Assembly: GCA_020846775.1 (NCBI GenBank)
Contig: JADLDG010000102.1
Coordinates: 1 to 54,076, forward strand
Source: Nitrospirota bacterium
GTDB lineage: Bacteria > Nitrospirota > 9FT-COMBO-42-15 > HDB-SIOI813
Direction: 5' to 3'
DNA length: 54,076 bases
Of this stretch, positions 1 to 52,334 are shown one piece after another. The notes under the pieces are model-generated. The model did no database searches, was not told the origin of the DNA, and saw only the letters and a list, made by a program, of their open reading frames with translations. A program made the position numbers and the translations under genes. Positions within the stretch are counted from its first letter, which is position 1. Every line of letters begins with the position of its first letter.

Positions 1-220
1 AATTTGAACCTCAACGTACGGGTAGTACGTCTACGGTCCAAATTATATGTCCTTCCTTGCACCTGGGCATTTTTGAACACAAATTACACTTAGCTGCTTT
101 GTTAAACGCCCATTTGCGGCGTCAGGAAGATAAATTTGACCCTCAGCGTACAGGAAGTACGCCTACGGTCCAAATCTATCTTCCTTCCTTGCAACTGGAC
201 ATTTTTGAGCAACGACTGAT
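1..220 (+). repeat. Family B hairpin repeat, two tandem copies (first truncated by window edge)
   Basis: Two direct copies with a period of about 132 bp. Each has a hairpin with a GTAC/GTAC inner stem (second copy 125-184; first copy ends at 52), then a conserved tail reading CCTTCCTTGCA, CTGG, CATTTTTGA (about 51-80 and 183-215). In copy 2 the outer arms GGAAGAT and ATCTTCC pair exactly. Related copies lie at 15779-15852 and 21506-21651. I see no convincing gene in 1-261. Confidence 0.75.
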
Positions 221-4770: not shown

Positions 4771-4901
4771 GAAATAGCCTTTCAAATCCTCCCTGCCCCC
4801 CTTTTCTAAAGTGGGGTAACTAATTTCCCCCTTTGAAAAAGGGGGATTAAGGGGGATTATATTCAAGCTTTGTGAACCCGCGGCTCATGACAGTTCACTC
4901 G
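4771..4901 (-). repeat. Family A palindromic element (copy 1)
   Basis: Lies between the phosphatase and glycerate kinase genes. Read on the coding strand: a TGAGCC-type hairpin near the phosphatase stop, then CCCCCTTTTTCAAAGGGGG and a second C/G hairpin, ending GATTTGAAAGGCTATTTCG. The phosphatase stop codon is inside the element. Confidence 0.85.
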
Positions 4902-5697
4902 TAATCAGTTTGATAACTTCTCTGTTCCATCCGGCTGGGCCTATGCCATCTGCCTTTATTATATTAGGAAGTTGTATCTTCTCTTCATAACTTCCGTCTT
5001 CCTTTTGAACAAGAACCGGATAGTCTGCATTCTGCAGTAGCGGAAGATCATTGAAACTGTCGCCAAGTCCTATTGTCACGATCCTTCCCAACTCTCTTTT
5101 ATAATAATCCATGAGTATCTTAACGGCCTTACCTTTATCATTGTCACCAAGGATGTGATAATACCTCCCCTTAGTCCAGAAAAGTCCGGCCTTTTCTATC
5201 GCATCAATAAACTCCGTAACACGGTCTTCTCCTTCTTCGAATATGAAAGGTTCGTCAAAGTCTCTCTCCTTGGACAATACGGCATCTGATAATGGCAGAC
5301 CCGTATGACGTGCGATTTCTTCGTGGTTCATATCACCAAATCCCTTTACCCTGATCCCCGTCCTTTGCCGTATATCATGAAATACCCTTCTGATATGATG
5401 ATATGATTTGCCAAGTGTGATAATCCTGTAATCTCCTTTACATTCACCAGATACAGGGTTATTGAAATATCCTTCAGGAATAAAGATCCCTCCGCCATTT
5501 TCAGTTATGAAAGGGTCGTTGTTCCCCATCCGGCTGCGGTATTCACGAATCTCAGCACTGGTCTTACTGGAGCATAAGACTACCGGGTATCTTCGTTCTT
5601 TAATAACTTCGAGAGCAGGGATGGCATCAGCAAATGAATAATTTACCGGATGCAGTAATGTACCATCCAAGTCTGTAATGATAATGACAGTCGGCAC
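4885..5697 (-). CDS. HAD-family mannosyl/glucosyl-3-phosphoglycerate phosphatase
   Basis: A 270-residue Cof/MpgP-type HAD phosphatase predicted to remove the phosphate from glucosyl-3-phosphoglycerate (or the mannosyl analogue), completing glucosylglycerate synthesis. Motif I is ITDLDGTLL, with nucleophile Asp9 and general acid Asp11. Motif II is the VVLCSSKTSAEI region. The late KGKAVKILMDYY lysine and the GLGDSFNDLPLL motif IV bind Mg2+. The C2-type cap with ENGGGIFIP is typical of the MpgP/YedP group. Its place between glgC and the glycerate kinase in the gpgS locus supports the substrate. The last codons and the stop come from a family A repeat. The true C-terminus may thus have been re-made by repeat insertion. 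Confidence 0.83.
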   Translation of the reverse strand: MPTVIIITDLDGTLLHPVNYSFADAIPALEVIKERRYPVVLCSSKTSAEIREYRSRMGNNDPFITENGGGIFIPEGYFNNPVSGECKGDYRIITLGKSYHHIRRVFHDIRQRTGIRVKGFGDMNHEEIARHTGLPLSDAVLSKERDFDEPFIFEEGEDRVTEFIDAIEKAGLFWTKGRYYHILGDNDKGKAVKILMDYYKRELGRIVTIGLGDSFNDLPLLQNADYPVLVQKEDGSYEEKIQLPNIIKADGIGPAGWNREVIKLITSELS

Positions 5698-7842: not shown

Positions 7843-8010
7843 CGAAAATAGCCTTTCAAATCCCCCCTGACCCCCCTTTTCTAAAGGGGGGAACTTGATT
7901 CTCCATTAATAGTATGAGGAACATTATTTCCCCCTTTGAAAAAGGGGGATTAAGGGGAATTTTTTCATGCTCCTGGTTTGTGAGCACGCGGCTCACGACG
8001 GTTCACTCGA
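7843..8010 (-). repeat. Family A palindromic element (copy 2)
   Basis: Occupies the gap between the convergent gene at 7122 and mutS. It has the same C/G double hairpin as copy 1 with a longer A/T-rich centre (about 7896-7930), then the TGAGC/GCTCA hairpin at about 7981-7995. It is oriented like mutS transcription. Confidence 0.85.
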
Positions 8011-8031
8011 AAATCCCTCGATTCATCCTGA

Positions 8032-10842
8032 CTAATTACTAATCTTCCTTTTCAATTCATCCAGTTTGGTTAGTGCCATCAATGGTGTCAAGTTCATTAT
8101 GTCCAATTCTCTCAGTTCACTCAGAACCGGGTGTGTCTCAGCCGGTGTACTGAAAATATCTGTCTGTGACACATGCTGTGCTTTATCTTTATCAGAATGT
8201 GCCAGTTTCGGCATGCCTGATCCGTCAAGTTCTTCTTTTTCAAGGTTTGCAAGCACCTCTTTTGACCTGTTTATAACCTCTGCAGGTATGCCTGCAAGTC
8301 TTGCCACCTGGATACCATAGCTCTTGTCTGCAGTGCCAGGCATTACCTTTCGCAAAAAGATAACCTCATCGTTCCATTCGCGTACAGCCATGTGTGAGTT
8401 GAATATCCCTTCAGTTGTGAGGGCAAGTTCCGTCAGTTCATGATAGTGGGTGGCAAACAGTGTCTTTGCCTTAAGCCTCCTGTTTATAAATTCAGCGGCT
8501 GCCCACGCGATGCTAATGCCGTCAAACGTGCTTGTCCCGCGTCCAATTTCATCAAGCAGAATCAGGCTCCTGTGGGTTGCATTGCGAAGGATATTTGAAG
8601 TTTCCTCCATCTCAACCATGAATGTACTGCGCCCCTCGCTCAGGTTGTCTGACGCCCCTATTCGCGTGAATATACGGTCAACTACTCCTATATGTGCTTC
8701 ACTGGCAGGGACAAAACATCCGGTTTGAGCCATCAGTACAATGATAGCTGTCTGCCGCATGTATGTTGATTTACCGGCCATGTTGGGCCCTGTCAGTATC
8801 ATGAGTCTGTTTTTTTCATAATCGAGTTCAATGTCGTTGGGTACAAAGCGCTCACCAAGTCCCATCTGTTCGATAACGGGATGCCTGCCGTCTTTAATCA
8901 TTATTGTAAGGCCATGGTTTATCACAGGCCGTATATAATTAAATGAGTGTGCTGCCTCTGCAAGTGAGGCAATTACATCTATGCCTGCAATCCCCCTGGC
9001 GCTATTCTGCACCCGCTCTACATCCCTCGCCGCTGTTTCCCTGATTTCTTCAAAAAGGTGTAGTTCGAGTCTTTTTATCTTCTCATCTGCTCCAAGCACT
9101 GTTTCTTCATATTCCTTCAGCTCAGGTGTAATAAAACGTTCGGCCCCGGCAAGCGTCTGCTTTCTGATATAGTCCTCAGGTACATTATGAAGTTTTGTCT
9201 TTGTCACTTCCATGTAATATCCGAAGACCCTGTTGTAGCGGATCTTCATGGAATCTATACCTGTCCTCTGACGCTCCTTTGCCTCAAGCCTTGCAATCCA
9301 ACCCTTCCCCTCCCGGCTTATTTCACGCAGTCTGTCGAGGTCAGGGTTAAAACCATCCCTTATAACACCGCCGTCTGTAATTGACAGGGGAGGGGAGTCT
9401 GCTATAGCTTCAGAGATCAACTTCTGTAATTCTCCGATACCGTCAATCATGTCAACTGCATTACTGATGAAGGTATCTGAACAATCGGACAGGAGGATTT
9501 TCAGTTCAGGTATGATTGAAAGACATTGATTAAGAGACGTGAGGTCGCGTGCATTTGCTGCCTTGAGTGTAATCCTGCTGATAATTCGCTCCATATCATG
9601 AATATTTCTTAAAAGCTCGCGCAATTTGTATCTTAGCGTAAAATGATTCCTCAACTCTTCGATCGCATCCTGTCTCCTTATGATCTCATCACAGTCCATA
9701 AGCGGATTGAGTATCCAGTGCCGCAGCAGTCTCCCTCCCATCGGTGTCATGGTCTTGTCCAGCAGGTGAAAAAGGGTGCCTTTTCGTTGTCCTGTCTGTG
9801 ATGACCTGACGAGCTCGAGCGTACGCTGCACCTGGTCGTCTACCGTCATGTACTGTCCTTGCCTCCAGACCTTTACACGGTTGATGTTTTTTAGTAAGGT
9901 CTTCTGAGTCCCGGAAATATAGCCGAGGAGTGCGCCGGCGGCGTTTATAACAGGACTGTGCGCATCAATACTTATTGATTCATTTTGTTTCTCTTTTATA
10001 TGTTCATTGAATACTGCCGAAGCCCTGATAAATTCGAACATTTCAGCGGGACATCTATTGATGCACAACATTTGCAGCTGACTGCTGCTCAGAAATCCTG
10101 AGCAGTCAAGACCTTGCGGCACTATTAACTCTTTCGGGGCTATGCGGGCTATTTCGTCGGAAATTTCCATCCATATGTGCTTGTCTACGGTATTAAATCC
10201 CCCCTTCACCCCTTTATTAAAGGGGGGAATAGGAGTTTCTTCTTTCGTAAATGGGAATATGCCAGTTCCTTCTTCTTTAAATGGAGATATTCGAGTTCCC
10301 CCTTTTGCAAAGGGGGATATAGGGGTATTTATCTCCGCAATATAGAAATCACCTGTAGAGATGTCTACAAATGAAAGCCCGGCGATGGCGACAGTCTGGG
10401 ACACTTCGCCTGGTGCAGCACGTTGGGAAGTGTCCCCGAAATAAACAGATGCTATATAATTATTTTCCCTCGAATCAAGGAGGTTTCCGTCGAGTATGGT
10501 CCCTGGACTTACTATCCGGATAACCTCTCGCCTCACTATACCTTTAGCTGTTGCCGGGTCTTCTACCTGTTCACAGATGGCTACTTTGTATCCGGACCGT
10601 ATAAGCTTCGGAAGGTATGAGTCAACTGCATGATATGGGATACCGCACATTGGTATGGGATTATCATTTCGTTTGTCCCTTGTCGTGAGCGTTATCTCGA
10701 GTATCTTTGATGCAGTGACGGCATCATCAAAAAACATTTCATAAAAATCTCCCATCCGGAAGAATAATATTGCGTCCCTGTGGTTATTTTTTATTTCCTG
10801 GTATTGCCGTAAGAGAGGGGTTAGTTGATCCTGGTTTGCCAT
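8032..10842 (-). CDS. mutS: DNA mismatch repair protein MutS (with in-frame repeat insertion)
   Basis: Mismatch-recognition ATPase. The mismatch-binding domain has the GDFYEMFFDDA wedge motif (31-41). After the connector come the lever/clamp domains and the ATPase, with Walker A GPNMAGKSTYMRQTA, Walker B LILLDEIGRGTSTFDG and FATHYHEL. At 936 residues it is longer than the usual 850-880. The excess is explained by residues about 172-218, a translated family A repeat (ISPF, GIFPF, IPPFNKG units), and residues about 136-151, from a small GGGACACTTC/GAAGTGTCCC palindrome. Both insertions lie in the connector domain between conserved segments and keep the frame, so the protein may still work. It is followed downstream by a family A element. 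No mutL is visible in the window. Confidence 0.96.
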   Translation of the reverse strand: MANQDQLTPLLRQYQEIKNNHRDAILFFRMGDFYEMFFDDAVTASKILEITLTTRDKRNDNPIPMCGIPYHAVDSYLPKLIRSGYKVAICEQVEDPATAKGIVRREVIRIVSPGTILDGNLLDSRENNYIASVYFGDTSQRAAPGEVSQTVAIAGLSFVDISTGDFYIAEINTPISPFAKGGTRISPFKEEGTGIFPFTKEETPIPPFNKGVKGGFNTVDKHIWMEISDEIARIAPKELIVPQGLDCSGFLSSSQLQMLCINRCPAEMFEFIRASAVFNEHIKEKQNESISIDAHSPVINAAGALLGYISGTQKTLLKNINRVKVWRQGQYMTVDDQVQRTLELVRSSQTGQRKGTLFHLLDKTMTPMGGRLLRHWILNPLMDCDEIIRRQDAIEELRNHFTLRYKLRELLRNIHDMERIISRITLKAANARDLTSLNQCLSIIPELKILLSDCSDTFISNAVDMIDGIGELQKLISEAIADSPPLSITDGGVIRDGFNPDLDRLREISREGKGWIARLEAKERQRTGIDSMKIRYNRVFGYYMEVTKTKLHNVPEDYIRKQTLAGAERFITPELKEYEETVLGADEKIKRLELHLFEEIRETAARDVERVQNSARGIAGIDVIASLAEAAHSFNYIRPVINHGLTIMIKDGRHPVIEQMGLGERFVPNDIELDYEKNRLMILTGPNMAGKSTYMRQTAIIVLMAQTGCFVPASEAHIGVVDRIFTRIGASDNLSEGRSTFMVEMEETSNILRNATHRSLILLDEIGRGTSTFDGISIAWAAAEFINRRLKAKTLFATHYHELTELALTTEGIFNSHMAVREWNDEVIFLRKVMPGTADKSYGIQVARLAGIPAEVINRSKEVLANLEKEELDGSGMPKLAHSDKDKAQHVSQTDIFSTPAETHPVLSELRELDIMNLTPLMALTKLDELKRKISN
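10189..10329 (-). repeat. Family A element inside mutS (copy 3, expanded)
   Basis: The same C/G-block architecture as the intergenic copies but with two extra internal units, all in frame with mutS and encoding about 47 residues. Length is a multiple of three. Both outer C-block and G-block arms are still recognisable. Confidence 0.85.
10401..10437. repeat. GGGACA-type palindrome inside mutS
   Basis: Perfect 10-bp arms GGGACACTTC and GAAGTGTCCC around a loop of about 17 bp, translated in frame as part of mutS. It resembles the hairpin after bfr (31181-31213) and the palindrome in the hemY gene (about 53152-53176). Confidence 0.7.
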
Positions 10843-11647: not shown

Positions 11648-11753
11648 TCACGACGGTTCACTCGAAATAGCCTTTCAAATCCCCCCTGCCCCCCCTTTTC
11701 TAAAGTGGGGTAACTAATTTCCCCCTTTGTGAGCCCCGGCTCATGACGTGTCA
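11648..11753 (-). repeat. Family A palindromic element (copy 4)
   Basis: Fills the gap between the UDG stop and the HIT start, with the same orientation relative to transcription. The second G-block arm is shortened (CCCCCTTTGTGAG replaces CCCCCTTTGAAAAAGGGGG). The TGAGCCGGGGCTCA hairpin is at about 11729-11743. Confidence 0.8.
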
Positions 11754-15171: not shown

Positions 15172-15284
15172 TCATCCGAAAATAGTCTTTCAAATCCCCC
15201 CTGCCCCCCTTTTCTAAAGTGGGGTAACTAATTTCCCCCTTTTGTGAGCCCACGGCTCATGACGGTTCACTCGAAAATACCTGT
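15172..15284 (-). repeat. Family A palindromic element (copy 6)
   Basis: Between acpS and nnr, oriented with transcription. One G-block arm is replaced by a direct run into the TGAGCC/GGCTCA hairpin (about 15246-15260), as in copy 4. It is followed at 15305-15360 by an unrelated low-complexity stretch with the unit CATTGCTCATTGCTGATCA, similar to one at 40561-40615. Confidence 0.8.
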
Positions 15285-15736: not shown

Positions 15737-15778
15737 AACCCGGCTCTCATGAATAATTAATGACAAAAACGATGTCCC

Positions 15779-15852
15779 AGTTTACGCTCAAAAATGTCCA
15801 GTTGCAAGGAAGGAGTCAGAACGCCCCAAAAGGGTATTTTTCAGCGTAAACT
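15779..15852 (-). repeat. Family B element (partial copy 3)
   Basis: On the minus strand it reads GGCGTTCTGACTCCTTCC, then the conserved TTGCAACTGGACATTTTTGAG tail. Outer arms AGTTTACGCT (15779-15788) and AGCGTAAACT (15843-15852) pair perfectly. The internal covarying hairpin of the other copies is missing. It lies in the acpS leader. Confidence 0.7.
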
Positions 15853-15965
15853 CCAAAATTATGACAGAAAACCCATAGAAGGGTCAATAGATATCAAAAA
15901 ACACCCAAATTGATACTATATGACTTTCCCTGGTCAATTCCGGGATTTACCATGCTTCATTTTCG

Positions 15966-18315: not shown

Positions 18316-18428
18316 CCTCATGAGCCAGGGCTCACAATGGGGCATGAAAAATCCCCCTTAATCCCCCTTTTTCAAAGGGGGAAATCAGGTTCCCCCCTTT
18401 AGAAAAGGGGGGTAAGGGGGGATTTGAA
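18316..18428 (+). repeat. Family A palindromic element (copy 7)
   Basis: Between pheS and pheT on the plus strand, so inverted relative to the minus-strand copies but again sense with transcription. The TGAGCCAGGGCTCA hairpin comes first, then CCCCCTTTTTCAAAGGGGG, then CCCCCCTTTAGAAAAGGGGGG, ending GATTTGAAA. Confidence 0.88.
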
Positions 18429-20706: not shown

Positions 20707-20910
20707 CTATCCGTACGGTATTAGTTTCTTAACATTCCTCACATTACTCTCATGAACCATTGCTGCCTTCTTCAATGCCCTCTTTCTTCGAGAGGTCTTC
20801 TTTGTCAGCAAATGATTTCCTGATGCCCTGCTTCTTTTTATCTTGCCTGTTCCGGTAAGTTTAAAGCGCTTTGATGCGCCTTTGTGTGTCTTGAGCTTGG
20901 TTTTAGACAT
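20707..20910 (-). CDS. rpmI: 50S ribosomal protein L35
   Basis: A 67-residue basic protein with KLKTHKGASKRFKLTGTGKIKRSRA and a K/R-rich centre (TKKTSRRKRALKKA), standard for L35. Its ATG lies within the last codons of infC (8-nt overlap), so the two are translationally coupled, and rplT follows 30 bp downstream. Confidence 0.97.
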   Translation of the reverse strand: MSKTKLKTHKGASKRFKLTGTGKIKRSRASGNHLLTKKTSRRKRALKKAAMVHESNVRNVKKLIPYG

Positions 20911-21481
20911 CTTCCCTCCCTTCTGCCGTTATTACTGATTCCGTACCAGTGCCCTTTGACTTCTGTGCATCTGATCTGGGAGAGATGATCATAATCATAC
21001 TGTTTCCCTCCATCTTTGCCGGAACTTCAACTACACCTATATCCTTTACCCCGTCAGCAAATGATATCATTATTCCCTTTGCAGTCTCCCTGTATGCCAT
21101 TTCTCTTCCCCTGAAAGTAAGAGTCACCTTTGCCTTATTCTTATCCTCAAGGAATCTTCGGACATTTCGGATCTTTATCTCTATATCATGTTTGTCAGTA
21201 TAAGGTCTTACCTTTACCTCTTTAAGCTGCATACTGCGCTGGTGTTGTCTTGCGCCATGATGCTTCTTTGCAAGCTCGTATTTATATTTTCCAAAGTCCA
21301 TAATACGGCAGACAGGAGGTTTAGACGTAGGCGCTACCTCAACAAGATCCAGGCCGAATTCAACAGCCTTCTTAATGGCCTCGAACGTCGGTAGTATCCC
21401 GAGCTGTTCCCCCTCCGGGCCGATAACACGGACTTCTTTAATTCGAATTTCTCTGTTGACTCTTATACGTGGCTCTGCGAT
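20903..21481 (-). CDS. infC: Translation initiation factor IF-3, AUC start
   Basis: Binds the 30S subunit and checks the start codon and initiator tRNA. The first ATG (21301) would give only the linker and C-terminal domain. The frame continues upstream through the complete N-terminal domain (RVNREIRIKEVRVIGPEG, AVEFGLDLVEVAP, SKPPVCRIMDFGKYKYE) to an ATC at 21481. That codon lies 6 nt after AGGAGGTGA (21488-21496). infC is known for AUU/AUC/AUA starts used in autoregulation, so the ATC start is chosen, giving 192 residues. The C-terminus has about 18 extra, Ser/Thr/Glu-rich residues after the usual end. Confidence 0.95.
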   Translation of the reverse strand: MAEPRIRVNREIRIKEVRVIGPEGEQLGILPTFEAIKKAVEFGLDLVEVAPTSKPPVCRIMDFGKYKYELAKKHHGARQHQRSMQLKEVKVRPYTDKHDIEIKIRNVRRFLEDKNKAKVTLTFRGREMAYRETAKGIMISFADGVKDIGVVEVPAKMEGNSMIMIISPRSDAQKSKGTGTESVITAEGREDV

Positions 21482-21496: not shown

Positions 21497-21505
21497 CTCG
21501 TTAGA

Positions 21506-21651
21506 CACTGAAAAACGCGGGGTACCCATTGCTGCATGCAAATGCAATGGGTCGTGCGGCGTCAGGACTTTAATTTTGAGCTTCAACGTACAACATAGTA
21601 CGCCTCAGCTCAAAATTAAAGCCCTTCCTTGCACCTGGACATTTTTGAGTG
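21506..21651 (+). repeat. Family B element (full copy 4)
   Basis: Lies between thrS and infC. It holds hairpin 1 (ACCCATTGC 21524-21532 with GCAATGGGT 21544-21552), a conserved linker GTGCGGCGTCAGGA, and hairpin 2 with perfect 15-bp arms (21568-21582 and 21607-21621). The conserved CCTTCCTTGCACCTGGACAT tail follows. The outer ends CACTGAAAAA and TTTTTGAGTG are complementary apart from one base. Confidence 0.85.
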
Positions 21652-21662
21652 TCAACGGCCAG

Positions 21663-23519
21663 TCATGATTTCTGGTTAATTTCTTGTGTTACCCTGTTAA
21701 CTGCTTCTTCAAGCGGCAATGCCCCTATATCGCCTTCTTTTCTCATCCTTACTGCTATTGTGCGGGACTCTGCCTCCCTGCCGCCTATTATAAACATATA
21801 TGGAACTTTTTCCAACTGTGCTTCTCGTATCTTGTGTCCTATCTTTTCGTTTCGGCTGTCTACTTCCACCCGCACACCTTCACTGTTAAGTGAGTCCCTG
21901 ATCTCTTCAGCATATTCATTCTGTTTATCCGTTATCGGGAGTACCTTAACCTGTACAGGTGACAACCACAATGGAAATGCCCCGGCGTAATGCTCAATCA
22001 GTATACCAAAGAATCGCTCAATTGACCCCATCAGCGCCCTGTGTATCATAATCGGCTGATGCTGCTGGCCGTCTTCACCAACATAAGTCAGGGAGAATCT
22101 TTCAGGGAGATTAAAATCAACCTGAATTGTGGTGCACTGCCAGGCACGATCCAGTACATCCTTTATCTTGATATCTATCTTAGGGCCGTAAAAAACCCCT
22201 TCGCCCGGGTCTATCTGATAAGGGAGGCCCTTTAATTCAAGGGCGTTACGCAATGCATCTGTAGCCTTTTCCCAGTTATCAAGTGTCCCTACGTAATTCT
22301 CCGGCCTTGTTGACAGGTAGATGTCATACCTGTCAAAACCATACGTAGTCAGCAGATCAACTGTAAAATCCAGTATAGAGGTGATCTCATCCCGGATCTG
22401 ATCGGGCCTGCAGAATATATGTGCATCATCCTGTGTAAATCCCCTTACCCTCAAAAGGCCGTGTAAGACCCCTGACCTTTCATAACGGTATACAGTGCCG
22501 AGCTCAGCCCACCTTATAGGCATTTCCCGGTAACTATACATCTTCGATTTATAAATAGCTATATGGAACGGGCAGTTCATCGGTTTTAACTGGAAGTCCT
22601 GTCCCTCGACATCCATAGGCTTATACATGTTGGCCTGATAGAACTCCGTATGGCCGCTGGTCTTCCATAGATCCAGCTTTGCCACATGGGGCGTGTACAG
22701 GAGCTTGTATCCATGCCTGAGGTGTTCCTCTCTCCAGAAGTCTTCAATGGTCTTTCTTATTATTGCCCCATTGGGGTGCCATAATATGAGGCCCGAACCA
22801 ATGTCATCATGGATGCTGAAGAGTTCCAGTTCTTTACCGAGCTTCCGGTGATCCCTCTTTTTTATCTCTTCAAGTTTGCTGAGATAGCTGTCGAGGTCTG
22901 CCTGTTCCGGAAATGCCGTCCCATAAATGCGTTGAAGCATCCTGTTTTTTTCATCACCACGCCAGTATGCCCCGGCAGTTTGAAGGAGCTTAAATGATCT
23001 TATACGATTGGTAGACGGGATATGAGGTCCCCTGCACAAGTCTACGAAGCTGCCCTGCTTATAGCACGATACGGTCTTATCAGGTATCTCTCTGATTATC
23101 TCTACCTTGTAATTCTCACCCATATTTTCAAAGAGCGTGATGGCGTCTTCCTTAGACATCTCCATCCGGGAGATTGGTATGTTCTTGTCTGCCAGCCCCC
23201 TCATCTTCTTCTCTATCCTGATCAGGTCATCAGGCGTAAAAGTCTTGTCATAGTCAAAGTCGTAATAAAAGCCGTCTTCTATAGAAGGACCTATGGTTAC
23301 CCTGACTTCCGGATAGAGCTCCTTTACTGCCTGAGCCATGAGATGGCTTGTGCTGTGCCTGAGAATTTCCAGACCCTCAGGAGAAGAGGCAGTTATCCAC
23401 TCTATGTCGGAACCTTCAGATGCAGGCGTGTTTAAATCTACAGGCTGGCCGTTAATTTTTGCTGCAATTATCTCCAGGTTTTCATTGCCCCTGGCTTTTA
23501 AAATTTCTATTAGTGTCAT
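21663..23519 (-). CDS. thrS: Threonyl-tRNA synthetase
   Basis: Charges tRNA-Thr. It has a partial TGS domain (IIAAKINGQPVDLNTP), the editing domain with HSTSHLMAQAVKELYP, motif 2 RYERSGVLHGLLRVRGFTQDDAHIF, the zinc ligand Cys in LKPMNCPFH, and MIHRALMGSIERFFGILIEH before the anticodon domain. The start is uncertain. ATGs at 23519, 23540 and 23603 are all in frame without a clear ribosome site. I give 23519 because a promoter-like TTGACA/TAACAT lies just upstream. The TGS domain then lacks its usual first strand. The family B element separates it from infC. Confidence 0.94.
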   Translation of the reverse strand: MTLIEILKARGNENLEIIAAKINGQPVDLNTPASEGSDIEWITASSPEGLEILRHSTSHLMAQAVKELYPEVRVTIGPSIEDGFYYDFDYDKTFTPDDLIRIEKKMRGLADKNIPISRMEMSKEDAITLFENMGENYKVEIIREIPDKTVSCYKQGSFVDLCRGPHIPSTNRIRSFKLLQTAGAYWRGDEKNRMLQRIYGTAFPEQADLDSYLSKLEEIKKRDHRKLGKELELFSIHDDIGSGLILWHPNGAIIRKTIEDFWREEHLRHGYKLLYTPHVAKLDLWKTSGHTEFYQANMYKPMDVEGQDFQLKPMNCPFHIAIYKSKMYSYREMPIRWAELGTVYRYERSGVLHGLLRVRGFTQDDAHIFCRPDQIRDEITSILDFTVDLLTTYGFDRYDIYLSTRPENYVGTLDNWEKATDALRNALELKGLPYQIDPGEGVFYGPKIDIKIKDVLDRAWQCTTIQVDFNLPERFSLTYVGEDGQQHQPIMIHRALMGSIERFFGILIEHYAGAFPLWLSPVQVKVLPITDKQNEYAEEIRDSLNSEGVRVEVDSRNEKIGHKIREAQLEKVPYMFIIGGREAESRTIAVRMRKEGDIGALPLEEAVNRVTQEINQKS

Positions 23520-23538
23520 GACTTTACAAAGATTTGAC

Positions 23539-23567
23539 ATGTTATCATCTATATAAGGCAGTGTCAA
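23539..23567 (-). promoter_or_regulatory. Candidate promoter for thrS-infC-rpmI-rplT
   Basis: On the minus strand TTGACA (23567-23562), 17-bp spacer, TAACAT (23544-23539). The -35 is perfect; the -10 matches four of six. Confidence 0.35.
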
Positions 23568-23651
23568 GCCTGCGCTTTGGCCCGCTATCGGGCTGAAACA
23601 CATTGAAAAAACGATATTGATTGTTATAGAAACACTACTTATAATGCATGG

Positions 23652-33160: not shown

Positions 33161-34573
33161 TTACAGGCCCTCGCGTTTAATTTCATCTATTTCCTGCAGT
33201 ATCCTGAAGTGCATGGGGGTATCGGTTTTTACCAGATCTTTTGCCCTGTTAAACTCCTTGAGCGCCCTGTCAGGGTCCAGGTTTATCTTGAAATATCTGG
33301 CAGAATAGAAGGCATCTCTGCCGGATTCTCCGCTTTTCCTGTATGCCATTGCAAGATAGAAATTGACCATATCGTCTGTTTCATCCAATCTGAGTGCGTC
33401 TTCAAGATGGGAAGTTGCCATTGCAAGATTATCGGAATCCATCTCTAAAATGCCCATGATGACGTGAGCAGGGGCATAATCTTTGTTTAAGGAAATACTT
33501 TTGAGTGCGGCTTCCCTGCTTTTAACGATGTCCTGTTGTTTTAGATAACAATATGCAAGGTCCGCATAATAGACATAATTTCCCTCATTAAACCCGATAG
33601 CCTTTAGATATCTGGGAATGGCATCACTGTATAGTCCTGCCTTCATGTAAACAATGCCGAGAAGATAGTTCGCCGTTTCATCCCTTCTTTCTTCAGGGAT
33701 TTTCTCAATACCCATTGATTGCAGGAGGATAGACTCGTCTTTCAATGCTATATTACGGGACAGAAGTGATGCCTGCATGCGCGTCCATTTTTGGGCTGTA
33801 TTAGTTTTGGAATCAGTGTCTGCTGCAGTGGATGCAGAGTCATGTGTCTTCATGAGAAAACTGGCAACCCGGTCTCGCCTTTCTTCAAGACCCGGGTGAG
33901 TAGATGCATAGGCAGGGACGGTCTGGGGATTAAATCTCTCATACCGGATCAAGCTGTCAAAGAAATTAAGGAGACTTTCTGATGAGTAACCTCCCTTTTC
34001 CAGATATCTCATTGCATAACTGTCAGCTTCCCTTTCATTTTCGCGACTAAACTGTAAACGTACGTCGAGATTGGCGGCTCCGGCAAGAGTAAGGGCAGCG
34101 GGGTTTCCTCCGCTCAAAAGGATTGCAGCAATAGTTGCAATATCCAGTGCCGCAATCTTCTTGTCGTCTTTAAAAAAGTGGCTCCTCTCCACATGTGCAA
34201 TCTCATGGGCCAGGACGCCGGCAAGTTCACCCTCATCCCGGAGTTGAGGCAGAAGACCGTCAAAAACAAAAATATATCCACCTGGTATGGCAAATGCGTT
34301 AGGCTGGTTTTCCCTTACGACCAGGAAATGGTAGCTGTCAGGATTAGCCCCGATTTTACTGACAATACGGCGTCCGACACTATTGACTAAATTCACTACA
34401 TCCGGGTCTTTAACGAACCGGTAATGTTGGAGCGCCTCTTTGACAAATGCCCTCCCCATCTCCTTGGAGGGAGGAGGTGATGCGTCCTTCCTTGCTGAAG
34501 GATAGGAGCTGCAGCCGAGAAGGAGGAGGGCCAGTACAACTGTTATGTAGAAGTTATTTTTTAATCCGAACAT
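33161..34573 (-). CDS. M48-family metalloprotease lipoprotein with TPR repeats (BepA-like)
   Basis: 470 residues. A lipoprotein signal (VVLALLLLGCSSY, lipobox Cys at 21) points to membrane attachment in the periplasm. The protease domain has LAGVLAHEIAHVERSHF with the HExxH zinc site and NEREADSYAMRYL with the third ligand Glu. From about residue 290 tetratricopeptide repeats follow (ANYLLGIVYMKAGLYSDAIPRYLKAI, VYYADLAYCYLKQQDIVKSREAAL and others). The order matches BepA/YfgC, which helps LptD and other outer-membrane proteins assemble or clears them. The gene stands alone, followed by a family A repeat. Confidence 0.9.
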   Translation of the reverse strand: MFGLKNNFYITVVLALLLLGCSSYPSARKDASPPPSKEMGRAFVKEALQHYRFVKDPDVVNLVNSVGRRIVSKIGANPDSYHFLVVRENQPNAFAIPGGYIFVFDGLLPQLRDEGELAGVLAHEIAHVERSHFFKDDKKIAALDIATIAAILLSGGNPAALTLAGAANLDVRLQFSRENEREADSYAMRYLEKGGYSSESLLNFFDSLIRYERFNPQTVPAYASTHPGLEERRDRVASFLMKTHDSASTAADTDSKTNTAQKWTRMQASLLSRNIALKDESILLQSMGIEKIPEERRDETANYLLGIVYMKAGLYSDAIPRYLKAIGFNEGNYVYYADLAYCYLKQQDIVKSREAALKSISLNKDYAPAHVIMGILEMDSDNLAMATSHLEDALRLDETDDMVNFYLAMAYRKSGESGRDAFYSARYFKINLDPDRALKEFNRAKDLVKTDTPMHFRILQEIDEIKREGL

Positions 34574-34702
34574 AGCTTTTCAAATCCCCCCTGACCCTCC
34601 CCTTTCTAAAGGGGGGTAACTAATATCCCCCTTTGAAAAAGGGGAGTGAGGGGGATTATTTTCATGTACATTTGTGAGCCCGCGGCTCATGACAGTTCAC
34701 TT
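34573..34702 (-). repeat. Family A palindromic element (copy 8)
   Basis: Fills the gap between the protease and the acyl-CoA synthetase, sense with both. The TGAGCCCGCGGCTCA hairpin is at about 34676-34690. The last bases overlap the synthetase stop. Confidence 0.85.
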
Positions 34703-36577
34703 ATATATGATTTTCACATCTACTACAATGATCCCGTCAGGATATGCAACTGCCGGGTTGAACTCTAATTCTACTATGTCAGGGAACAGTGTTGCAACCT
34801 CAGAGACCTTCACTATCGTATCAGCCAATATTCCCATGCCCACACCCCTGGCGCCTCTTATACCCCTGAGTATTTCATATCCCCTGATTGCTTCTATCAT
34901 TCTCAATGCGCCATTATGAGTTATTGGCGCGATGTCAAAGACTGTGTCCTTTATAATTTCTGTAAATATTCCACCCAGTCCAAACATTACCACAGGGCCG
35001 AAGTCAGGGTCCTTTATCGAACCAATGATTACCTCAATGCCTGATGGTGCCATTTCTTGTACAACAACTCCGGTCAATGCCTCTTTTTGACTTCGTGCGA
35101 ATATGAAATCCGGGTACTTGATGCTCATTGCATCTAACATGTCTTTACTATTGACCGGCTGAGGACCCTTGATCAAGCCCTTTATCAGCGGATATTCCCT
35201 TATATTCTCAGGGAAAGGTTCTGCCGGAATGTTTTTTAAAAGGGCTGCTGCTGACTTTACCATCCTGATGGGTGTAGGGAATACCGGTATTTTACTCTGC
35301 CTGAAAGTATTTTCCAATCTCTTGCCGTTTCCTGAAAATGGATTAAGTGATACAACTGGTTTAGCAATGTCCCTGACGGTATTCGTAATCAGTTTGCCCA
35401 GTTCCTGCGTAATTCCAGGGACTGTCATAAAAGGAATAAGGAGAGCCGCGTCATAGTGATTCAGGCATTCTTCAAGTACCATGACAAACTGTTTATCTGT
35501 AGAATTTCCTGTAAGGTCTATGGGATTTGATAGAGCATAATAGGGGGGCAATAATGACCTGAGGCGATCTTTAGTCTCTACTGGCAGGTCAGGCAGGAGC
35601 AGGCCCTCCTTATTACATAAATCTGCTGTCATTACCCCTATTCCGCCGGCATTTGTGACAATCAATACCCGTTTTCCAGTATGTGGTTTCTGCAGGGAAA
35701 AGGTCTTTAACAAGTCTATGAATTCCTCAAGGGTGTTTGCCTCATGAATACCGCTTCTCCTGAATGCCGCCTGAAATATCTCGTATCTCCCTGCCATTGA
35801 ACCTGTGTGAGATCTGGACGCCTTTTTACCCGCCGGTTGTTGACCCAGTTTCAGGACGATCATTGGCTTGGTGCATCTTTGAGCTGCACTTATGAATCCT
35901 CTTCCATCTCCTATAGACTCAATGCATATACCAATAACGCCAGTCTCGTCATCATCACTCAAGTACTTGATCAACTCTGTTTCTCCAACATCAACCCTGT
36001 TTCCGTAACTCACAGCCTTGGAGACGCCAAGCCCCTCCTGTTCCAGCAGGATAAGGGTCGTCCCCAGTATGGAGCCGCTTTGTGATATTAATGATATGTT
36101 ACCGGATTGAGGCCTCGGCACCCTGTCATAAGGCAGGAAAAAAGTGTCGAGCCCGGCAGAAGGATGAAAGATGCCGAGGCAATTAGGTCCGATAATACGT
36201 ATACCTGCGTTGCCTGCAATTTCTTTTATTTCGCTCTGTATAACCTCTCCCCCCTCTGTTTCTGCGAAGCCGGCTGTAGCGATAATGATATGATGAATGC
36301 CTTTTCCTGCATGCTCCCTGAGTAGGGATGGGATAGTTGCTGTTGGTGTGATACAGACCGACAGTGATACATCATCAGGGATGTCAGATACAGAAGGGAA
36401 GCAAGGGACTCCGAGGATACTTGTATGATTAGGATTTACCGGATATATGATGCCCTTAAAAGCATGAAGCAGATTCTTTAAGATTATCCCGGATGGTTTA
36501 GTCACGTCCTGTGATGCACCTACAACTGCAATCGAACGTGGATAAAAAAATGGGTCGAGACCACACGATTGTTCCAT
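34697..36577 (-). CDS. ADP-forming acyl-CoA synthetase, alpha-beta fusion with internal ATP-grasp deletion
   Basis: 626 residues of the NDP-forming acetyl/acyl-CoA synthetase family. The alpha half is complete: CoA-binding PRSIAVVGASQDVTKPSG, IGPNCLGIF, SQSGSILGT, and the phosphohistidine loop SRSHTGSMAG. The beta half begins normally (MLDAMSIKYPDFIFARSQKEAL) but jumps at residue 501/502 (nucleotide about 35074) directly to TGVVVQEMAPSGIEVIIG. About 60 residues expected between them are missing, including the ATP-grasp strand with its conserved Lys (usual form VLK, then SP and HKSDVGGV). The remaining DPDFGPVVMFGLGGI and ELEFNPAVAY parts are intact. Frame is open throughout, so the protein is made, but ATP binding is doubtful. 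Confidence 0.88.
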   Translation of the reverse strand: MEQSCGLDPFFYPRSIAVVGASQDVTKPSGIILKNLLHAFKGIIYPVNPNHTSILGVPCFPSVSDIPDDVSLSVCITPTATIPSLLREHAGKGIHHIIIATAGFAETEGGEVIQSEIKEIAGNAGIRIIGPNCLGIFHPSAGLDTFFLPYDRVPRPQSGNISLISQSGSILGTTLILLEQEGLGVSKAVSYGNRVDVGETELIKYLSDDDETGVIGICIESIGDGRGFISAAQRCTKPMIVLKLGQQPAGKKASRSHTGSMAGRYEIFQAAFRRSGIHEANTLEEFIDLLKTFSLQKPHTGKRVLIVTNAGGIGVMTADLCNKEGLLLPDLPVETKDRLRSLLPPYYALSNPIDLTGNSTDKQFVMVLEECLNHYDAALLIPFMTVPGITQELGKLITNTVRDIAKPVVSLNPFSGNGKRLENTFRQSKIPVFPTPIRMVKSAAALLKNIPAEPFPENIREYPLIKGLIKGPQPVNSKDMLDAMSIKYPDFIFARSQKEALTGVVVQEMAPSGIEVIIGSIKDPDFGPVVMFGLGGIFTEIIKDTVFDIAPITHNGALRMIEAIRGYEILRGIRGARGVGMGILADTIVKVSEVATLFPDIVELEFNPAVAYPDGIIVVDVKIIYK

Positions 36578-52237: not shown

Positions 52238-52334
52238 AGGAAATCCCCCTTAATCCCCCTTTTTCAAAGGGGGAAATTCGTTTTTCCCCCCTTTAGTAAA
52301 GGGGGGTGAGGGGGGATTTGAAAGGCTATTTTCA
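52238..52334 (+). repeat. Family A palindromic element (copy 9)
   Basis: Between hemH and hemY, sense with transcription: CCCCCTTTTTCAAAGGGGG, then CCCCCCTTTAGTAAAGGGGGG, ending GATTTGAAAGGCTATTTTC directly at the hemY start. The TGAGCC hairpin of other copies is missing here. Confidence 0.85.

Follow-up and report, generated by a model that had tools for sequence, protein, structure and literature searches.

A dispersed palindromic element in Nitrospirota lies flush against tRNA and tmRNA 5' ends and stop codons, and its arms appear to be kept complementary partly by arm-to-arm copying

The tandem hairpins at the left edge of the window (the whole 54,076-nt stretch analysed, which is the entire contig C102 of a 2.73-Mb Nitrospirota MAG, G000) are two minus-strand copies of a dispersed hairpin element, located in the tRNA-Glu(CTC) leader. 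We consider it probable (roughly 0.6) that this family, termed family B, is a non-autonomous, dispersed palindromic element of the MITE/REP kind, about 125–137 bp long, whose arms are kept complementary partly by copying from one arm to the other. The family is dispersed, with copies that are also inherited at fixed sites, and its 3' end lies flush against the 5' ends of tRNAs and tmRNA in sense orientation, or against the stop codons of protein genes in antisense orientation. No description of the element was found in the literature searched, and an Rfam scan of the window and 20 non-tRNA copy loci returned matches to tRNA, SRP RNA and tmRNA only, and none for the element. We would classify it as a new palindromic family of Nitrospirota, similar to REPs and MITEs and kept at RNase P substrates.

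The first-pass annotation had described a tandem array with a common linker, a common tail and arms that differ between copies and still pair, and these features hold. The linker GCGGCGTCAGGA is present at 116-127 and 21556-21567, the tail CCTTCCTTGCA.CTGG.CATTTTTGA at 51, 183 and 21623, the tandem period of about 132 is right, and the arms pair in each copy, with which the covariance model (CM) and orthologous copies agree. By contrast, the suggested further copies to the left do not exist, as tRNA-Glu(CTC) comes next when the sequence is extended leftward on contig C90. The leftmost copy is broken within its hairpin by the window edge, and its linker therefore lies on C90; since the final 109 nt of C90 are the initial 109 nt of the window, copy 1 can be completed there, directly before the tRNA. 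The tandem pair at this tRNA is conserved in the sister genome G001, with different inner arms that still pair. The minus strand gives the better fold for the hairpins in the window, and copy 2, of which the 3' outer arm is degenerate, folds on that strand into one hairpin of −60.1 kcal/mol (shuffled mean −29.8; z = −9.0). In a fourth window copy (15777-15854), the outer arms GTTTACGCT/AGCGTAAAC pair and the inner hairpin is gone (Table 1). The type B copy lies between thrS and infC, on the strand of both genes. By thrS, the closest named relative of the MAG is Nitrospirae bacterium RBG_16_43_11 (88% identical), where the thrS-infC site holds an orthologous type A copy that has different arms and no second hairpin. 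The second-hairpin variant (ACCCATTGC...GCAATGGGTACCCC in the 3' shoulder) was seen at L003, L008, L018, L029, L100, L102 and L104.

Table 1. Features of the window (contig C102) and of other G000 contigs where named.
Feature	Position	Strand	Evidence or remark
Family B copy 1, truncated at contig edge	1..88	-	CM match 1-44 and C90:23336-23466; element end ~C90:23336
tRNA-Glu(CTC), after copy 1	on C90		found by ARAGORN
Family B copy 2, full-length type A, tandem upstream of copy 1	90..219	-	CM match 100.6 bits
Family B deletion derivative	15777..15854	+	CM match 45.9 bits; sequence
Family B type B element, extra hairpin ACCCATTGC...GCAATGGGT	21499..21658	-	CM match 84.6 bits
thrS, upstream neighbour of type B copy	21663..23603	-	Pfam tRNA-synt_2b, HGTP_anticodon, tRNA_SAD
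infC (IF-3), downstream neighbour of type B copy	20903..21301	-	Pfam IF3_C; listed ORF begins within gene
CCCCC family copies	4772-4834, 7846-7908, 10183-10245, 11666-11728, 15180-15242, 18337-18399, 34572-34634, 52241-52289
Third repeat	4869-4910, 7977-8018, 15241-15282, 34671-34712
Sister hairpin family	C42:562-680 (L211), C74:184-301 (L212), C96:3010-3137 (L191), C111:4234-4353 (L208)

The unit exceeds the hairpin first noted, with outer arms of 8–13 bp that pair and vary too. Read on the minus strand, it runs outer arm, CTCAAAAATGCCCAG.TGCAAGGAAGG, inner arm, TGAGGCGTACT....GTACGTTGA, inner arm, TCCTGACGCCGCAGATGGGCATTTTTCAG, outer arm, such that an outer arm, conserved shoulders and an inner arm enclose a GGCGTAC/GTACGTT loop. 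The outer arms pair over at least 6 bp in nearly every copy and read AGTTGACG or AGTTTACG in most, and the ends of the element carry AGTTGACGCTCAAAAATG. Copies with the second hairpin measure 154–170 bp, most copies fall within 123–170 bp, and nested, tandem and deleted copies also occur. Exact linkers number 17 in G000, against 1 for the reversed pattern used as control, and the covariance model places about 25–30 loci in this genome, with comparable numbers in relatives from the same GTDB family. Overall, the element is dispersed in ten genomes of the family, and weaker relatives occur elsewhere in the phylum.

Placement was analysed in the fetched neighbourhoods of 99 distinct copies from 11 genomes, with genes called by longest-ORF heuristics. 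The 3' end of the element faces a same-strand tRNA or tmRNA in 40 cases, 36 of them within 9 nt, against a single case on the opposite strand, whereas among ORFs it is the opposite strand that prevails (48 vs. 8), with the stop codon at the junction in nearly all of the 48. Where both neighbours are ORFs, a gap of no more than 3 nt separates 41 of 46 copies from the stop codon, compared with 8.6 expected under uniform placement in free space, and gaps this short occur at the left end in 7 of the 46; the exact fractions are approximate, because they depend on longest-ORF gene calls and best-scoring copies. The SRP RNA at L029 lies beside an element in opposite orientation, and therefore does not extend the tRNA rule. 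For an element to abut RNase P sites and stop codons in this way is unusual, whether it reflects insertion or retention, and calls for a mechanism.

Filled and empty states of the same site were found in two pairs within the genus. In the first, the gene in G000 ends ...TGG AGG TAT TGATG, its stop overlapping the next start, whereas the G001 gene reads ...TGG CGA TAT T|AG and is followed by the element and then by 47 nt, which carry the start and a new ribosome site, so that the G001 copy sits inside the TGA of the gene. In the second pair, which concerns another gene, the natural TAG is retained and the G001 element starts on it. The two G001 insertions are not gene disruptions, because the C-termini are intact, and for both empty sites loss in G000 could be an alternative to insertion. 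The stop codon of one and the same gene bears an element in L098 (G001), L269 (G002) and L067 (G006), in opposite orientations, which suggests inversion or repeated insertion at one site.

In some genomes, copies at different sites are up to 93–95% identical, and such near-identical copies represent recent dispersal. At the same time, for 18 of 36 copies the nearest copy in another genome lies at the same tRNA (on permutation, 1.8 on average and 8 at most). The consensus outer arm AGTTGACG is common at stop-codon copies; the arms of tRNA copies have diverged, as is expected of old residents. The element is both mobile and fixed. The earlier suggestion of transposon ends stands in part, as the element is short, non-coding and dispersed, with the terminal inverted repeats of a MITE and near-identical recent copies, but target site duplications gave no consistent signal (one 6-bp case, L283, and the rest near chance). 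No linked transposase or recombinase was found, and a RAYT gene with matching sites did not emerge from the 13 Y1_Tnp loci of G000–G009, none of which has an element within about 1.5 kb.

Integron recombination sites had likewise been suggested. If the element were an attC or other folded-strand recombination site, a recombinase would read one folded strand and the sites would mark cassettes. The imperfect palindrome, with its variable paired arms, conserved shoulders and one orientation flush with gene 3' ends, does resemble attC, and two genuine IntI genes occur in the related genome G003. However, the outer arms read AGTTGACG/AGTTTACG in place of a GTTRRRY core, the neighbours are core genes (thrS, infC) and tRNAs without cassette arrays, the tRNA-side copies lie at 5' ends, and no IntI exceeded the cut-off of 265 bits in G000, where the best match scored 113 bits, or in eight of the nine other genomes. 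We conclude that family B is not an integron attC site, a reading that is already mostly refuted and, even when widened to other folded-strand sites, highly improbable. A search for the attC boxes RYYYAAC...GTTRRRY (R''/R') found none in the element. The two full-length G003 integrases (423 and 365 bits; L337 on G003:C82, and G003:C6:3499-4434) lie on contigs without listed element copies.

The arms covary strongly. Among 12 G000 copies, 30 of 53 pairs have changed on both sides, with 87 double-change cells against 23 after shuffling, and 93.8% of cells are paired, against 79.4% when shuffled and 30–42% when slid. When copies that share a tRNA site are compared between genomes, there are 94 double Watson-Crick changes and 58 single-sided changes touching a Watson-Crick pair. 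Covarying pairs are therefore above controls, and such covariation of stem arms is normally taken as near-proof of a selected RNA structure. It is possible, although we find it doubtful, that family B is a structured RNA under selection, namely a functional hairpin RNA that serves as tRNA/tmRNA leader or mRNA 3' structure and in which mutations are compensated pair by pair. Beyond the covariation itself and its persistence among orthologous copies, this reading would account for the long inheritance of tRNA-site copies, for the conserved sense-strand G-U pairs at the loop stem and for a tRNA fold that is predicted to stay intact beside the element. However, the stop-codon copies, which are transcribed from the opposite strand, covary too, half-changed pairs in variable columns are unpolarised, arm blocks have been replaced exactly, even with a 1-nt length change, and the element matched no Rfam family. 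The first-pass claim of selection for a structure is thus upheld as to covarying arms, on which covariance model and orthologues agree, but a selected RNA is not the sole reading, given the signs of DNA-level copying.

These signs come from individual copies. The consensus inner arms are mismatched in most of the family's other genera, with GGACAAGGATTTG on the 5' side and GGACTGCGGATTTG (as reverse complement) on the 3' side. L275 carries GGACAAGGATTTG in both arms, L278 carries GGACTGCGGATTTG in both, and L064 and its orthologue L293 bear near-identical copies of a third arm variant. In genus g1 the arms are of the longer type in every copy, and in L003 the loop is inverted. In all, clear copying of an arm was seen in about four cases, and inversion of the loop in one. 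The former are block replacements with a 1-nt length change, unlike serial single compensations, and the latter is the strongest possible support for template switching (PMC8794818). The half-changed pairs of tRNA copies, in columns without consensus wobble, comprise 15 GU and 19 AC. Selection on a transcribed RNA strand is expected to favour G-U over A-C. The exact arm copies, the inverted loop and the wobble that is not strand-polarised point to DNA-level copying between the arms, by template switching or by conversion within the palindrome. They support the view that the arms stay complementary at least in part because one is templated on the other, and we conclude that this copying makes a substantial contribution.

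If the arms are kept matched partly by copying, then some of the covariation is a by-product of mutation, while selection could still be the source of most covarying pairs. G-U pairs are conserved in the loop stem and the shoulder stem, as are the internal loops, which suggests recognition, past or present, of the folded sense strand; the G-U pairs also suggest some sequence-specific sense-strand role, beyond drift plus copying. The same mechanism, in which one half of a stem is rewritten from the other half, has been proposed for template-switch mutation in RNA stems (PMC8794818), where it was inferred in RNA genes rather than in a dispersed bacterial palindrome family. In family B, covariation arising partly from arm-on-arm copying can be followed in a natural setting, in many independent copies with clear before and after states. 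The family could therefore serve as a model for studying template-switch evolution and as a warning for RNA discovery based on covariation.

Of the 34 tRNA copies, 8 have a consensus promoter (TTGACA-17-TATTAT or similar, score at least 10 of 12) upstream of the element, compared with 0.4 expected, and the same scoring found one at 0 of 42 stop copies. The promoter sequences suggest that several tRNA-site elements would be transcribed as pre-tRNA leaders. For example, at tRNA-Val(TAC) the G000 promoter runs straight into the tRNA, whereas in G001 the element stands between this promoter and the tRNA. In silico, acceptor stem pairing was 0.93 for the tRNA alone, 0.94 with the element as leader and 0.53 with a shuffled leader; for tRNAs without an element, it dropped from 0.87 to 0.66 when the natural 140 nt upstream were included. 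It is plausible that copies at tRNAs and tmRNA are transcribed as part of the 5' leader and fold on their own, leaving the cloverleaf intact, and that RNase P, judging from the position of the element, cuts the leader away. A tRNA or tmRNA site would then be a safe and long-lasting home, because the leader folds alone and is removed. At protein genes, the hairpin at the stop codon would probably act as a terminator or 3' mRNA structure, which may be compared with E. coli REPs, many of which are found no more than 15 nt from a stop codon, where they can cause ribosomes to stall (reviewed in PMC12306157).

Alternatively, the whole family might consist of portable transcription terminators, that is, of an A-tract/GC-stem/T-tract palindrome kept at gene ends, which upstream of tRNAs would insulate them from readthrough. 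The arrangement CAAAAATGCCCA...TGGGCATTTTTG has the form of a bidirectional terminator, and a GC-rich hairpin followed by a T-run (TGGGC-ATTTTT) is present in both directions. A T-run of at least 5 is kept in 31 of 36 stop-type copies vs. 23 of 37 tRNA-type copies, and in one instance the stop codon now occupied by the element is followed, in the sister genome, by a T-run. However, several tRNA promoters lie upstream of the element, and strong termination in that direction would silence essential tRNAs; in addition, the T-tract/A-tract pair is alike both ways and leaves the polarity unexplained. We regard this alternative as rather unlikely. A further proposal, which is speculative and in our judgment unlikely, is that insertion or retention of family B is tied to RNA-defined ends, namely the RNase P-cut 5' ends of tRNA and tmRNA and the stop codon. 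The element would leave essential RNAs via RNase P as introns leave via splicing, and its insertion could be guided by a step that acts at the RNA level or is coupled to processing.

To our knowledge, no REP family lies flush at tRNA or tmRNA 5' ends. ERIC/IRU elements are imperfect palindromes of about 100–150 bp with terminal inverted repeats, and they are intergenic, partly transcribed and non-autonomous. Bacterial MITEs, RUP and Correia elements (PMC2229807) share all of these properties and resemble family B in them. Compared with these and with ERIC, neither a consistent target duplication nor a partner transposase was found for family B, and its arms differ between copies while their complementarity is kept. 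REP elements of the GTAG/CGTC superfamilies are, like family B, dispersed intergenic palindromes, and CGTC repeats likewise have no linked transposase (PMC3733652). However, REPs measure 20–40 bp, whereas the family B unit of about 125–137 bp has outer and inner arms, and the RAYT genes of these genomes are not flanked by it. A REP/RAYT system, with a 20–40 bp palindrome and a GTAG or CGTC tag, was rejected for units that are mostly 123–170 bp. The palindromic multicopy sequences of Geobacter (PMC2700814) are intergenic families with a central palindrome, as in family B; one reported core, GRCGTAGCGCTGCTACGCC, resembles the GGCGTAC...GTACGTT loop, without implying homology, and the main text does not describe covariation or placement at tRNAs or stop codons.

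A related family, GACAAGGCAGACGACGAAG...AGTCTAACGCCGTA, follows the same placement rule at tRNA-Ser, tRNA-Asp and tmRNA. The sister hairpin family GACAAGGCAGACGACGAAG...CCGGAGGCGTACT..GTACGTTGAGG...GGAGTCTAACGCCGTA adjoins tRNA-Ser, tRNA-Asp and tmRNA (Table 1), and on C42 a family B element is nested within its loop. C42 and C74 carry the same tRNA-Ser(TGA)/tRNA-Ser(GCT) pair, possibly owing to duplication, strain mixture or contamination in the MAG. Within the window, a second dispersed palindromic family (AAATCCCCCCTGACCCCCCTTTTCTAAAGGGGGG..., the CCCCC family) has at least eight copies, and a third repeat, TTTGTGAGCCCGCGGCTCATGACGGTTCACTCG, usually adjoins it.
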